From a virus, in the IMG/VR virus record IMGVR_UViG_3300035698_014932, positions 1 to 38,678 of that record: a stretch of 38,678 nt of DNA. One strand, 5' to 3'. The position numbers and the translations under genes were made by a program. Within the stretch, counting starts at the first letter, position 1. The number at the start of each line of letters is the position of its first letter. This document shows, piece after piece, positions 840-38,678 of this stretch. The notes under the pieces are model-generated. The model saw nothing but the letters and a program-made list of their open reading frames with translations, made no database searches and was not told the DNA's origin.

Positions 840-1319
840 ATGAAAAAAGAATTACATAGATATTTTAAAAATCCAGGAAAATTACAATGACTTATTCTCG
901 ATTGAGCGAAATACAGTAAATATTGATGGCATGGTTCAACACATTGATATCATCCTAGATGAGTGCTTGTATGAGATATATTAATGTATGATGAATGGCA
1001 TTCCAATAATCATACATATATAGAAATATCACCAAAAAAATGATTAAATTGGATAGAGCAAGATAATAATTCAACAAGTTAGAATTGACGTGCTATACCT
1101 TATCAGAAAGAAGTAAAATTGATAACAGTTCGGAATTATTGATCAGAATTAAAAGAGTGACCGTGGTGTAATACTATCAATAATATGATATATGATTTAG
1201 AGGAGGAGATTTTCTTAAAAAAAGAAAAAGAAAAAAAAGAAGAAAAAGAAAAAGAAGAAAGATATCAAAGAGAAAAAGAAGAAAAAGAAAAAGAATTATT
1301 TAATAATTGGAAAGATTAA
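840..1319 (+). pseudogene. conserved-looking phage gene interrupted by in-frame TAG
   Basis: From ATG 840 the frame codes for 80 residues, meets TAG at 1080-1082, then stays open in the same frame to TAA 1317-1319. Both parts look coding: Gly/Trp-rich text before the stop (GWHGSTHGYHPRGVLVGD) and NGRAIPYQKEVKL with GPWCNTINNM after it, ending in a highly charged Lys/Glu coiled-coil-like tail. The codon context STS-stop-NGRAIPYQ would suit Trp (TGG to TAG) or Gln. The choices are a broken gene, amber readthrough, or two polypeptides. No function is recognised. Confidence 0.6.
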
Positions 1320-2390: not shown

Positions 2391-2475
2391 TTTTTAATTA
2401 TAAAATAAAATGGATAATAATAAATAAAAAACATGCTAATCCAAAAGTAAAATTTATTTAAAGATTTGAAATATA
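2391..2475 (+). other. AT-rich spacer
   Basis: Contains only tiny frames (for example MDNNK at 2410) and no clear promoter or terminator; it joins the immunity gene to the structured RNA region. Confidence 0.5.
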
Positions 2476-3345
2476 AATGTAATATGTAAATAACAGCCTA
2501 TAACTAGTATTTATATATTTTACACATTACATTGATAGATTTAAAGATTAATATCGTGGGTTCACCAGAGAAGTTAACAGTGAACATCTAGCCTCACTAC
2601 ACGACTGAAGATTCCTTTGACTAAGGATGAAACATACCTGTTCGATCAGCTCATTACTTATTTAATAAGTATGACTAGTCATCAGGTGTGTATCGTGGAG
2701 TCTCCCAAGTGAGGGAATAACTGGAGACCTAGACTTCTCACACTATATTAGTTTTTAAATATTGCTAAGCAATCACAGAAGCTCAATGATCTTGTAGGTG
2801 GGCTGTTAAATGAATTACTTTTGAGGAATAGATTTAATATATGAGTGTAATGTATAAATGAGTCTTTAAGTAGAATAATCATTATGTAGGAGAACTTTTC
2901 AGATCTATTTGGTTTGGGTACTTTGGTGTTTAATGAGTGGTTAAATCGCTCCCAAGCCCACTGCTGAAAGAAGAGCTTAAGTGCTAGAAGTAAAACGAGG
3001 CGTCGATGATACGCCTATCCTATATCGTTATACATTACATTGATAGATTTAAATACAAGTTGGGATTAGCAGCAACTACCTTATGCTAATCATAACCGAC
3101 GCTAGGGAAACCTAGGGGGGAATATAGGTAGGCAGGGCTCTATGGTTCGACGGAAATGTACAATCCATAAACTATAAATTGAGACTGTGCTCCTCTGTAT
3201 GATAATTAATTACTTAGTTTATACTAAGGCTATTTATAAACGTGTATTGTTTTATAGATAGAGAATTGATTATATTACAGAGGGAATGCAGTAGCAAGAG
3301 ATATAGTTCTCTGGAAATATTATTTAACACACAAAACGTTTTATT
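2476..3345 (+). ncRNA. candidate large structured noncoding RNA
   Basis: About 870 bases without a convincing gene in either code, visibly richer in G+C than its surroundings. A helix 2491-2498/2801-2808 (TAACAGCC with GGCTGTTA) closes a 320-base domain. Inside it are hairpins 2560-2565/2580-2585, 2613-2617/2623-2627, 2633-2640/2683-2690 enclosing 2656-2661/2665-2670, and 2700-2705/2723-2728. Downstream are 2999-3003/3011-3015, 3064-3071/3084-3091, CTAGG-GAAA-CCTAG at 3102-3115, 3141-3145/3165-3169, 3192-3199/3276-3283 and 3297-3301/3308-3312. Size and phage location recall the ornate large RNAs GOLLD and ROOL, but I cannot assign a class. The 3' part (GAGACT at 3181, AAGAGATATAGTTC at 3296) faintly resembles group I intron P7 strands. 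Strand is inferred from the neighbouring genes. Confidence 0.6.
2846..3039 (+). ncRNA. second arm-closed RNA module
   Basis: TGTAATGTATAA (2846-2857) is the exact reverse complement of TTATACATTACA (3028-3039), giving a perfect 12-base-pair closing stem around 170 bases. The module contains the hairpin 2999-3003/3011-3015 and the motif CGCCTATCCTAT at 3012-3023, which recurs in the next module at about 3471. No gene is supported inside it. Confidence 0.55.
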
Positions 3346-3438
3346 ATGAAAAACTTATTATCAATTATTGGATTATTTCTACCCGTCATTAAAGCAGATT
3401 TACATTCAGACTATTGAATATTTGATATATGAATGTAG
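3346..3438 (+). CDS. possible 30-aa exported peptide
   Basis: ATG 3346 opens a short frame to TAG 3436-3438. The N-terminus MKNLLSIIGLFLPVIKA has the shape of a signal peptide: a lysine, a hydrophobic run and a small residue. It is followed by a short acidic-aromatic tail ending GIFDIGM. It sits between two RNA modules, and its last seven bases fall in the arm of the third module, so initiation or termination could be coupled to RNA folding. It may also be a chance frame. Confidence 0.35.
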
Positions 3439-3617
3439 TGTATAAATGGTAAGGTAATTCGATTGTTCTCGCCTATCCTATTCATTGAAGGTATACAATA
3501 TATGAATAGGGTTACAAGGAGTTAATGCCAACTGAGGTGGAAGCATTTTAAAGCAGTTAACGGCTTGAATTGTGGAACAGGATATTGTTGGAAAACATAG
3601 GCTTTATACATTACATT
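3432..3617 (+). ncRNA. third arm-closed RNA module
   Basis: AATGTAGTGTATA (3432-3444) pairs with TATACATTACATT (3605-3617) over 13 positions with one G-U pair. Inside lie the CGCCTATCCTAT motif shared with the second module and a strong hairpin in which CCTATTCAT (about 3475-3483) pairs with ATGAATAGG. No convincing gene lies between 3439 and 3639. It probably belongs to the same transcript as the large RNA. Confidence 0.5.
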
Positions 3618-3754
3618 TATGTATTTAATAAAGTTATTTATGAAAACAGTAATAAAACCATGAAGAATACCAATTAAACTTTGGTTAGATGATATAGAAG
3701 ATGGAACGTTAGAACAAGCTACTAATCTTGTCAATGGTTATTACAGAAATACAT

Positions 3755-3812: not shown

Positions 3813-4307
3813 ATGAATAATAGTAAAGTAACATTAGAAAAAAGAAAAGAGCTAAGAAAGTACTATAAAAAAACTATAGACCCAAATTCTTTTCCAGTAT
3901 ATATTAAAAAGATATGTAAGGATTGCTGAAAAGAAAAAGATTGTAAATGGAATAGTTCTTTTACAACTAAATGAGTTCCAGAATATAAAGCTAGATGTGA
4001 TAAATGTCACAATATATTCAAAAGAATAATAGCAAAATCTAGTGTATCAAAATGACTATGTAATATAAGAGTAAAGAAATATCAAAGACAAAATAAACAA
4101 TGGGCTGTAGATTATCTATGATGAAGATGTATTAAGTGTTGATATAATAAATGTTTAAGAGCATTAAATTTTCATCATAGAAATCCAGAAAAAAAACAAT
4201 ATACAATATGAGAAATATTAGACCATCATAAAAATAAATTAAAAAAAGAATTAAACAAGTGTGATTTATTATGTTCTAATTGCCATATGGAAGAACATAA
4301 TAAATAA
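3813..4307 (+). CDS. HNH endonuclease (free-standing homing type)
   Basis: A 164-residue protein with two CxxC pairs typical of zinc-stabilised HNH enzymes: KICKDCGKEKDC and KARCDKCH near the N-terminus, then GRCIKCGYNKC leading to the core LNFHHRNPEK, ending CDLLCSNCHMEEH. The HH, N and final H positions match the HNH nuclease fold (a beta-beta-alpha-metal site that nicks or cuts DNA). Its position between an rtcB remnant and an intact rtcB suggests a homing endonuclease that moved into an rtcB region. It overlaps the remnant frame by 19 bases and has a consensus promoter just upstream. Whether it is active and what site it cuts are unknown. Confidence 0.88.
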
Positions 4308-4332: not shown

Positions 4333-5529
4333 ATGAATTTTACTTATAAAAATCCTGATTTTAAAGTTCCTATTAAGGCTTGGATTCCAAGAGAAGAATA
4401 TTTTAAGGATGAATGAATGGTAGAGCAGTGTGAAAATTTAGCTAAATTACCATTTGTTTATAAACATATAGTGTTAAATTGAGATTGACATCAAGGTTAT
4501 TGAATGCCTATATGATGAGTTATGGCAACTAAATGAGTTGTTTTACCTAATGCTGTAGGTGTTGATATTTGATGTTGAATGTGTGCTGTTAAAACAAATT
4601 TAACTGATATTGATACTGAAACACTTAAAAAGATAATGTGAAAAATTAGAGAGGCTGTACCCGTTTGATTTAATAAACATAAAGAAAAACAAGATGAAAT
4701 GTTAATGCCAACCCCTCCAGATGTAGACATAGATAATTTATTTAAGTTAATAATTGAAAAAGAATATAATAATGCAGCAAAATCAATTTGAACACTATGA
4801 TGATGAAACCATTTTATAGAAATACAAAAATGATCTGATTGATCTATATGGATAATGATTCATAGTTGAAGTAGAAATTTAGGACTTCAAGTAGCTAAAC
4901 ATTATAATAATTTAGCAAAAGAACTGAATAAAAAATGGTATAGTAATATAAATGAAAAGCATGATCTAGCATTTTTGCCATTAGATAGTGAAGAGTGAAA
5001 AAATTATATTCATGAAATGAATTATTGTGTAGAATATGCTTTAGCTAATAGAAAATTAATGATGGATAGAATTAAAGGGATATTTGAAATACAATATTCA
5101 ACTTGTATATTTGATGAAATTATAAACATAGCTCATAATTATGCAAGAATGGAAAACCATTTTTGAACTAATGTAATGATACATAGAAAAGGTGCTACAA
5201 GTTCTAAGGATTTAGAAATTTGAATAATACCATGAAGTCAATGAACTAAGTCATATATAGTAAAATGAAAAGGGAATAAAGATAGTTTCATGTCTTGTAG
5301 TCATTGAGCAGGTAGATTAATGAGTAGAAAAAAAGCAAAACTAAACTTAAATCTTGAAGAAGAAATTAAGAATCTAGATGATCAATGAATTATACACTGA
5401 ATAAGACATATAGATGATCTAGATGAAGCATCATGAGCCTATAAAGATATATCAGTTGTAATGGAAAACCAAAAAGATCTAGTAGATATACTTGTAGAAT
5501 TACAACCTATTTGAGTTATAAAATGATAA
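4333..5529 (+). CDS. rtcB: RtcB-family RNA ligase
   Basis: A complete 398-residue RtcB, the GTP- and Mn2+-dependent ligase that joins 2',3'-cyclic-phosphate or 3'-phosphate RNA ends to 5'-OH ends. Visible signatures: GDGHQGYGMPIGGV near residues 50-63, the metal motif VGVDIGCGMC with Asp78 and Cys81, GGGNHFIE with His160, HSGSRNLG with His177, IIPGSQGTKSYIV, and SHGAGR with the guanylylated His324. Most of these glycines are UGA. The N-terminus differs from the remnant at 3640. Phage RtcB is thought to repair tRNAs or mRNAs cut by host defence nucleases. The adjacent long RNA also makes it a candidate processing partner; that is inference. The HNH gene ends 25 bases upstream. Confidence 0.95.
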
Positions 5530-5563: not shown

Positions 5564-6016
5564 ATGCCTAAAAACACACAATGTAACAAGGTAGAAAAAC
5601 AACTTAGAACTACTTACTGTACTAAATTATATTTAAGATGATATGAGACGAATGAAATTTATAAATTTTTTGAAGAGAAATTCAAATTATGAACAAGACA
5701 GACTGATAGATATATTAAACTAGCTAAAGTGGCAATCTGCGACGAAAACGAATATACAATAAGGCAAGAGATCAATGTACACTATAGAAAGCTAATTGAT
5801 TTATATAATGCATCATATAAGAAAAAAGATTTTTGAGTTTGTAATAAAATTTTAAAAAGTATAAGTGATTTAAGATGATTAGATGAGGCTAAGAAAATAA
5901 AATTAGAATGAGACTTGTTTGATAAATTAATAATTAATGTTATTAAAAATGGAGATCAACACGACAAGGATATTTGAGGAGAACAATCAAACTGAAAAGA
6001 AGATAGTAATAAATAG
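5564..6016 (+). CDS. terS: terminase small subunit-like DNA-binding protein
   Basis: 150 residues, directly upstream of and overlapping the large terminase by 68 bases, the usual place of TerS. An N-terminal helix-turn-helix-like segment reads TNEIYKFFEEKFKLGTRQ followed by TDRYIKLAKVAI, as in TerS proteins that recognise the packaging site. The middle is helical (oligomerisation-like) and the polar tail (GDQHDKDIGGEQSNGKED) would contact the large subunit. The assignment rests on position, length and the HTH-like segment rather than a distinctive motif. Confidence 0.75.
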
Positions 6017-9488: not shown

Positions 9489-10010
9489 ATGGAAATTTGG
9501 AAAAATATAGTTTGATTAGAATTAAATTATCAAGTATCTAATTTATGAAATATAAGAAGTTTAAAAAATAATAAAATTAAACCTATTAAATTAAGATTAG
9601 ATAAAAGATGATATGAAGTTTTTAGACCTTGTATGAATTGAAAACATTTAGATAAAAAAATTCATAGAGTAGTAGCCGAAAGTTTTATTGATAATAAATT
9701 TAATAGAAAAGAAATAAATCACAAAGATTGAGATAAAACTAATAATATAATAGAAAATCTTGAATGGGTTACTAGATCATATAATAATAAACATGCTTAT
9801 AAATTATGATTAAGAAAGCAATGATTTTGAATAAATAACCCATATCATAGAGAAGTAAATCAATATACAAAAGATTGAAAATTTGTAAAAAATTGGTGAG
9901 CAATAGCTGATATAAAAAGAGAATTAAATATATTTTCTAGTAATATTTCATCATGTTGTAAATGAATAAATAAAACAGCTTGATGATTTATTTGGAAATA
10001 TAATATTTAA
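9489..10010 (+). CDS. NUMOD4/HNH homing endonuclease
   Basis: 173 residues. The N-terminus has a NUMOD4-type DNA-recognition motif (EIWKNIVGLELNYQVSNLG) followed by GNIRSLKN and the HNH core KKIHRVVAESF, NHKDGDKTNNIIENLEWVT, where the final 'NLEWVT' is diagnostic. The C-terminal third (VNQYTKDGKFVKNWGAIADI and ISSCCKGINKTAGGFIWKY) is a NUMOD1-like module. It sits between the minor head and protease genes, a typical insertion place for a free-standing homing endonuclease. The short (TA)n run at 9477-9490 may reflect the insertion junction or the start region. Confidence 0.93.
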
Positions 10011-17082: not shown

Positions 17083-17349
17083 ATGAAAGATATAATTTAC
17101 AAAGAAGTTTACACAAGAAAAGTTGATAGAGAATATAATAATAAATTGATGGAAGATTGTAAAACTTCAACAGATATAAAATGAGATATGAAATTTGAAA
17201 TAAATCCTATTAATATGTACAAAGCAAATGACCAATTAGTAAAAGATATGACTAATTTGACAGAAAAAGAAATTGATGAATTATCAGTAGATGAATATGA
17301 TGATATTTTAGATAAGATTAAAAAAATAAAATCTCCCAGCAAAAAGTAA
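17083..17349 (+). CDS. tail assembly chaperone, short form (gpG-like)
   Basis: 88 residues, acidic and helical, between tube and tape-measure genes, the conserved place of siphophage tail assembly chaperones. The frame ends SPSKK-TAA. The next frame overlaps at the end and has no start codon of its own, so the product is probably made in two forms by frameshifting. These chaperones coat the tape measure during tail assembly and are absent from the virion. Confidence 0.75.
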
Positions 17350-17584
17350 TGAGGAGATATTAAAAAAGTTTTGAAATTCGATTAGGAATAGTTGAAATAT
17401 AACAAAAGAACACAGAGATTATATTTTAATAAAAGAATTATATCACTGTTCTCCATCTGAATTAGATAAACAAGATGAGAATATCTTATCATTACAATTT
17501 AATATGTTTATGGAAGAAAAAAAGAATGAATTTATACAACAAAAGAGACAAGAACAAAAATTAAAATCTTCTAATAAAAGGTAA
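17083..17584 (+). CDS. tail assembly chaperone, frameshifted long form (gpGT-like)
   Basis: The second frame runs from 17330 (closed upstream by TAA 17327-17329) to TAA 17582-17584 and is +1 relative to the first. A slip at the A-run 17341-17345 (AAA AAG TAA) would let tRNA-Lys re-pair perfectly and continue SNEEILKKFGNSIRNSG...LYHCSPSELDKQDEN, giving about 167 residues. There is no ATG, GTG or TTG near the beginning of the second frame. A -2 slip gives the same frame. CCC at 17335-17337 is an alternative +1 site. The T-domain-like end abuts the tape measure gene by one base. Confidence 0.7.
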
Positions 17585-30759: not shown

Positions 30760-30949
30760 ATGATTATAAAAAACCCCACAAAAATTTATAATTATTACGT
30801 TCAAAAAAAATGAGGTTATTATTAAATAATCTTGTTTTTTTATAAATTCATTATTAATAGAAATACTGATATTGATATAAATAAATATATAAATATTTAT
30901 AAAATGATCTATTTTTACCCGAATAAACACGGTGAAATATTAATATATT
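30760..30949 (+). pseudogene. possible broken small gene with in-frame TAA
   Basis: ATG 30760 codes 21 residues to TAA 30823-30825, after which the same frame stays open to TAG 30947-30949 and codes about 40 more Lys/Tyr/Ile-rich residues ending FYPNKHGEILIY. Neither part resembles a known family. The rest of 30705-31039 is AT-rich without further genes. Low confidence that any of it is expressed. Confidence 0.3.
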
Positions 30950-30979
30950 AGATACACATAAAAAAAGTCAAAAATAAAC

Positions 30980-35886: not shown

Positions 35887-36207
35887 ATGATAAAATATAT
35901 ACTTTTGAAAGATATACCATGAATATCTGAATGATAGATATTAACTACAACTGAAGTAGGTAATCTACCAGAACGACTTGTATTCTGACAATGGTTCTCA
36001 TCTACAGTTTTCTGTTCGCCAGTATTTAATATAAATACTATACTTAATAATAAAGATTGGTTTGCAGAAATACAAGAATGATTATTATGAGAACTTGAAT
36101 ATCATAGATGATTAAAAGATTATTGAATGATGGAATGCGATGAATTAAATATAACTAAATCTGAACTAGAAAAAATTTTATCAAAATATAATATAACCAG
36201 AAAATAA
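35887..36207 (+). pseudogene. small gene interrupted by in-frame TAG
   Basis: ATG 35887 codes 16 residues (MIKYILLKDIPGISEG, the 'yk.lkDlPg' start of a common small phage protein) and then meets TAG at 35935-35937. The same frame continues for 89 codons (ILTTTEVGNLPERLVFGQWF..., ELEYHRGLKDYGMMECDELN) to TAA 36205-36207. No ATG exists near the beginning of the second part. The two parts form one gene with an amber at codon 17. Confidence 0.6.
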
Positions 36208-37925: not shown

Positions 37926-38177
37926 ATGTGAGAAGAATTATTAAAACATATAAATATTATCAAAGAAAATATTGAAATAATATGACAAGTATGATTCAAA
38001 GATTTAATGGCTTTTGATTGAAAATTAATACTTAGGTGAAATTAAATAATAATACCTGTTTTATGAGGTAAAAAATGGCACTTAATTTGTGACTCAGATC
38101 CCAAAAAAGATTACATGGATCAAGATGAAGAAGAATTTTTTATACCACTAAATGATTATTTAATTAACTGAATTTAA
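37926..38177 (+). pseudogene. small gene interrupted by in-frame TAA
   Basis: ATG 37926 codes 39 residues (GEELLKHINIIKENIEIIG..., KLILRGN), then meets TAA at 38043-38045. The same frame remains open for 43 more codons (IIPVLGGKKWHLICDSDP..., EEEFFIPLNDYLINGI) to TAA 38175-38177. The second part has no near start and reads like the end of one protein. The codon before the stop would suit Lys, Gln or Glu. No function is recognised. Confidence 0.55.
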
Positions 38178-38179
38178 TT

Positions 38180-38323
38180 ATGAAAACATTAAATTTAGAA
38201 ACTACAAAACAGGCTAACTACGATCAACTGAAAGTAAAGGCATAAATTACAGCTTTAACTACAAGGTTTACTTGGTATCAAAGTATTAATGCAAATAAAA
38301 GATCAGAAATTAATATTTTATAA
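38180..38323 (+). pseudogene. small gene interrupted by in-frame TAA
   Basis: ATG 38180 codes 21 residues (KTLNLETTKQANYDQLKVKA), stops at TAA 38243-38245, and the same frame continues for 25 codons (ITALTTRFTWYQSINANKRS) to TAA 38321-38323. CAA to TAA would be the simplest change (KAQITAL). It starts two bases after the preceding frame and 14 bases before the next gene. Function unknown. Confidence 0.45.
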
Positions 38324-38336
38324 CTAATTTTAAACT

Positions 38337-38678
38337 ATGACTAATATAAATTGTGATTCTTGTAATTCTTGTAATTCTTGTGAATCTTGTTATTCTTGTA
38401 AATCTTGTGATTCTTGTAATTCTTGTGAATCTTGTTATTCTTGTAATTTTTGTGAATCTTGTGAATTTTGTATTAATTTAGAAATGACTAAATATAATTA
38501 CTTTTGTTATGCTGATAATTTAGATAATTGATTTCAAAGACCTAGATATCAAATATTTAATATACAACTTACTAAAGATGAATATCATAATATTGATATG
38601 GTTTATATTAAATTAGATTTAAAAGATAAGTCTTATAAAGATGCATTTAAAAAAGCTTGGTATAAACTAGATAAAGAA
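38337..38678 (+). CDS. cysteine-repeat protein, 3' end missing
   Basis: ATG 38337; 114 codons to the window edge with no stop. Residues 6-46 are a 3-residue repeat of Cys followed by two residues, mostly Asx/Glu-Ser, (C-[DNEYK]-S)n, with 14 cysteines, encoded by tandem nine-base units. After it come a folded part (MTKYNYFCYADNLDNGFQRP, then RYQIFNIQLTKDEYHNIDMV) and KAWYKLDKE at the edge. Such proteins occur in phages and may bind several metal ions. The C-terminus is probably the fragment at 2-85 in a circular genome. Function unknown. Confidence 0.75.

Follow-up and report, generated by a model that had tools for sequence, protein, structure and literature searches.

Gene layout and genetic code of the window

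The window, that is, the whole stretch of DNA that was analysed, comprises the 38,678 bases of a linear virus record and represents a tailed-phage contig (38.7 kb). Its main gene blocks, and the four small frames that are each interrupted by one in-frame stop, are as follows.

840..1319, plus strand: interrupted small gene 1, with a start part at 840-1079 (80 codons) and a tail at 1083-1319 (78 codons)
1080..1082, plus strand: in-frame TAG of gene 840
About 5.5 to 28 kb: terminase, portal, capsid and tail genes
About 31 to 37 kb: recombination/replication genes (RecT-like, PD-(D/E)XK nuclease, DUF6291, VRR-NUC)
35887..36207, plus strand: interrupted small gene 2, with a start part of 16 codons and a tail of 89 codons
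35935..35937, plus strand: in-frame TAG of gene 35887
37926..38177, plus strand: interrupted small gene 3, with a start part of 39 codons and a tail of 43; no known family
38043..38045, plus strand: in-frame TAA of gene 37926
38180..38323, plus strand: interrupted small gene 4, the weakest of the four, with a start part of 21 codons and a tail of 25
38243..38245, plus strand: in-frame TAA of gene 38180

Translation of the window with table 11 left hardly any long frames, and when TGA was read as a sense codon, genes filled the plus strand. TGA encodes invariant glycines of RtcB, in the motifs GDGHQGYGMPIGG..GVDIGCGM and GDGHQGYGMPIGGVMATKG, GVDIGCGM, and because these glycines carry TGA, they point to code 25 (TGA as glycine) and not to code 4. 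In addition, TGA stands opposite glycine and never opposite tryptophan in aligned relatives, so that the UGA reassignment invoked in an earlier, sequence-only reading is corrected here to glycine. The contig thus uses code 25, the code of Absconditabacteria/Gracilibacteria, and it is this code that points to a host among them. Code 25 is also the code of terminase and capsid relatives in IMG/VR, and the relatives, whose capsid proteins are about 50% identical, also have gene order in common with the contig. Among 51 ordinary genes, TAA is the terminator of 48, and TAG ends the other three (ending at 6016, 14745 and 27402).

Several other features of the window were recorded. The RtcB-like RNA ligase gene occupies 4333-5529, in a contig without a tRNA gene of its own. 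A short membrane protein at 2223-2390 resembles superinfection-immunity proteins (YFLPTI...NLFLGWTFVGWVIA) and is also found in the code-25 phage contig L300 near 9650-9840 (E 0.002). About 1.2 kb at 2450-3620, with an HNH-like frame downstream at 3813, has no good frames and holds a 26-29 nt element in three copies per orientation (e.g. 2520/3028/3604 and 2464/2832/3420). This block gave no Rfam match, and its part at 2640-3610 folds better than shuffles (z -3.8, from only 20 shuffles); it may be a large structured RNA, and a suppressor tRNA within it was rejected after a tRNA search. At the right end, a cysteine-rich repeat protein (SCNSCESCYSC...) at 38337-38678 runs off the contig.

Single in-frame stops in four small frames

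In each of the four frames the stop is the only one (two TAG and two TAA), and an open tail follows. Past the stop of a normal gene, the frame stays open for a median of 7 codons (50-odd genes), and the tails of 89 (35887), 78 (840) and 43 (37926) codons are the only long ones that are not explained by a same-frame next gene; the 25-codon tail of 38180 lies within the background by length alone. A codon-usage score was trained on the contig itself and applied to the frames on either side of the stops; it rated both sides of all four stops as coding and the two shifted frames as non-coding. The sequence-only reading had listed five frames with a single stop. Those at 840, 35887, 37926 and 38180 are borne out by their coding tails, and the fifth, 30760..30951 (plus strand), was rejected as a gene, with a non-coding score on both sides of its stop; it is an AT-rich spacer between genes. 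The same reading stated that no structural or enzymatic gene is interrupted in this way, which holds for the structural block. The sole start-less coding stretch there, at 17336-17581, lies directly upstream of the tape-measure gene and, in a different frame, overlaps gene 17083-17349 at its end, and the layout of 17083-17581 would be the expected tail-chaperone frameshift, which is usual at this position.

The starts of the tails were also inspected. No ATG, GTG or TTG lies near the start of the 35887 and 38180 tails, and in 35887 none of the three occurs for 63 codons past the TAG. The first ATG comes after 34 coding-like codons in the 840 tail, which has a TTG 12 codons in, and after 23 coding-like codons in the 37926 tail. 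At the true gene starts, AATT directly precedes ATG in 12 of 56 cases (280, 840, 1337, 14770, 14997, 16448, 20154, 23734, 34801, 35887, 37926 and 38180), compared with 3% of all ATGs, and these include all four interrupted frames; AATT is a possible initiation context. The base after the stop is A in all four interrupted genes, and also in 20 of 51 normal genes.

Searches of Pfam, PHROGs, NCBIfam and the phage collection gave no match to the four products; 353 host-class genomes gave only chance-level matches, and no homologues were found in the relatives' contigs. The intact neighbours of the interrupted genes are mostly equally orphan. The 840 product has a lysine/glutamate-rich, helical C-terminus and belongs to no known family, and a single-sequence fold of it was unusable. 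Because these searches found no homologues of 840, 37926 and 38180, we infer that each is one gene from the coding score and the start context.

A domain split by a TAG at 35887

For 35887, members of its domain could be retrieved. A regex search among the loci first collected found none, and no match was obtained with the bait consensus of the domain against the phage collection or with a TGA-specific DNA pattern of the motif against IMG/VR. The bait consensus was used for retrieval only, and the test rested on the six real sequences that were retrieved. These six IMG/VR phage proteins have in common the N-terminal domain MKYKLLKDxP..aGxIF...NNPeWFe, and an HMM of them gave the read-through product of 35887 a score of 27.5 bits, in a match that spans the TAG, compared with 10.7 bits for the 16-residue start and 12.7 bits for the tail. 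None of 500 shuffled tails reached the score of the tail, and no combination of the start with a shuffled tail reached the full score. The blocks K-D-x-P-x-x-x-x-G and N-x-(E/D)-W are both present in the read-through product, in order and with the TAG between them. The TAG stands after the conserved G and before the I(F) of the domain, at a position where the homologues vary (A/R/T/S/E), and in the predicted fold, which is of moderate confidence (pLDDT 72, pTM 0.66), it stands just before the second strand. Since the HMM match runs across the TAG, 35887 is one interrupted gene with a single domain split and not two genes, and separate conserved genes with starts past the stops, which the sequence-only reading had named as a refutation of its view, are excluded for this locus.

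Origin and meaning of the interruptions

The contig and three control sets were scanned for coding stretches that lack a usable start and lie directly behind an in-frame stop. On the contig, the scan flagged exactly the four frames (4 of 70 coding segments). Among code-25 relatives, some of whose contigs overlap, it flagged 2 of 613 segments (Fisher P about 0.001 for the contig against these relatives); standard-code phages gave 1 of 331 and host contigs 0 of 62. The scan under-counts, because only 20 of 57 stops planted in intact genes were recovered, and the under-counting was assumed to be similar in the control sets. There is an excess of nonsense-type interruptions that is specific to this contig. 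All four stops lie in the accessory/early region (about 12 kb of accessory genes) and none in the 22 kb of structural genes, as expected if the genes that carry them are dispensable.

The best explanation, which we regard as fairly probable, is that four small accessory genes were each recently hit by one nonsense codon and represent alleles of dispensable genes. They would be recent loss-of-function alleles or polymorphic ones, in genes that some infections can do without. The host RF1 would end translation at the stops and leave only short peptides, in 35887 one of 16 aa. The tails would still be coding-like because there was little time for decay. As no close relative was found in which any of the four is intact, we infer recency from the state of the tails, which, being undecayed, would make the mutations recent or polymorphic. 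Among the causes given in the sequence-only reading, the decay or polymorphism of accessory genes agrees best with the data. However, no pseudogene of the frameshift type was seen alongside these four, and plain decay would be expected to yield some, which counts against it. Four independent stops are also many for about 12 kb of accessory genes, and none is further than 2.8 kb from a contig end, a position that would suit an assembly effect as well.

Such an effect, in which the stops came from consensus error or strain mixing towards the two ends of a contig that is a metagenomic fragment, is unlikely but has an appreciable chance. The stops lie 1080 bases from the left end and about 2.7, 0.6 and 0.4 kb from the right end, they are substitutions without indels, which fits short-read consensus errors, and the pattern is absent from the relatives. 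However, if the error were uniform, all four stops would fall in accessory genes with P about 0.03 (estimated from gene sizes and nonsense opportunities), and the neighbouring end genes (280, 496, 1337, 36209, 36776, 37297 and 37515) are intact. Consensus error or strain mixture limited to the contig ends would give the same picture in the assembled sequence.

Functional or tolerated readthrough, giving a short and a long product and perhaps regulating early genes, is distinctly unlikely. It would agree with the presence of exactly one stop per gene, with tails as coding-like as normal genes, with the lack of frameshifts among the interrupted genes, with the conserved domain that is intact past the stop in 35887, and with the A that follows all four stops; conserved in-frame stops under purifying selection have also been reported in bacteria (PMC7918605). 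However, an A after the stop is common genome-wide, the three ordinary genes mentioned above end normally on TAG, and neither the code-25 relatives nor the host contigs have an excess of in-frame stops. Conservation of the stop in relatives, with purifying selection past it, would be a sign of programmed readthrough, and no close homologue was found for this comparison.

The decoding machinery also bears on readthrough. RF1 reads TAA and TAG, so that termination here should be no weaker once TGA has ceased to be a stop, and the main release factor in six code-25 host genomes is RF1-type with the tripeptide PET/PAT. The sequence-only reading had suggested readthrough via an altered release factor 2. 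This idea predicts leaky TAA/TAG across code-25 systems, and it is unsupported, given the RF1-type factor in the six hosts and the lack of an excess in relatives. It had also proposed a search of the host for a suppressor tRNA; in the window and the phage relatives, ARAGORN found no tRNA gene, suppressor or other. Whole-phage TAG recoding was rejected, since in-frame TAG/TAA occurs 0 times in about 45,000 aligned conserved codons of relatives; frequent in-frame TAG/TAA in conserved genes and a suppressor tRNA, the signs of TAG or TAA recoding, were both absent. Readthrough at these stops is possible but unsupported. It is quite improbable that the phage, in its TGA = Gly host, keeps a single TAG/TAA in several early accessory genes and exploits inefficient termination there to obtain a little full-length product, an early gene set that would be tuned by readthrough with no suppressor tRNA involved.

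Two same-frame genes at some sites, by re-initiation or a non-ATG start, are very improbable: same-frame neighbours do occur here (10035/11259, 14305/14770 and 17586/20154) and in L300 (a pair starting at 9501), and the 840 and 37926 tails hold further in-frame ATGs, but the coding signal starts directly past the stop, well before any ATG, and in 35887 the domain spans the stop and the 63 codons past it are free of ATG, GTG and TTG.

Known systems differ from the contig in several respects. The coat extension of phage Q-beta is made by programmed readthrough, and a short and a long product split by one stop are common to both. However, neither conservation nor a stimulatory context is seen here, and the short product of 35887, at 16 aa, lacks the length to fold. 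In code-15 phages, TAG is a regular sense codon. In these TAG-recoded phages, TAG encodes Gln (PMC9523058); in-frame TAG in phage genes is common to them and the contig, but unlike in those phages TAG here is rare, ends three ordinary genes and is never found in aligned conserved codons of relatives. Code-25 phages of Absconditabacteria/Gracilibacteria have been described (PMC10746230), and they share with the contig dense in-frame TGA as glycine, TAA-dominated termination and tailed-phage gene order. One of them, RSA-ATP1, has its own UGA suppressor tRNA among four tRNA genes (PMC13059738), whereas the contig has no tRNA gene. In the passages of these two sources that were consulted, in-frame TAG/TAA interruptions are not mentioned. 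Bacterial genes that are intact apart from a single nonsense codon have been reported, many of them argued to be non-pseudogenes, using dN/dS across related genomes (Belinky et al. 2021, PMC7918605); for the contig, no close homologues that would allow such a measure of selection were found.

In conclusion, the contig provides a further instance of interrupted genes, here in an unusual host code, and we see no evidence of new decoding. If readthrough were shown at these sites, it would become testable whether a bacterium with RF1 as its main stop reader terminates less strictly. If the four are recent nonsense alleles, they would show which genes a code-25 phage can spare, and automatic annotation that reads TGA as W or uses standard stops would split or miss such genes.
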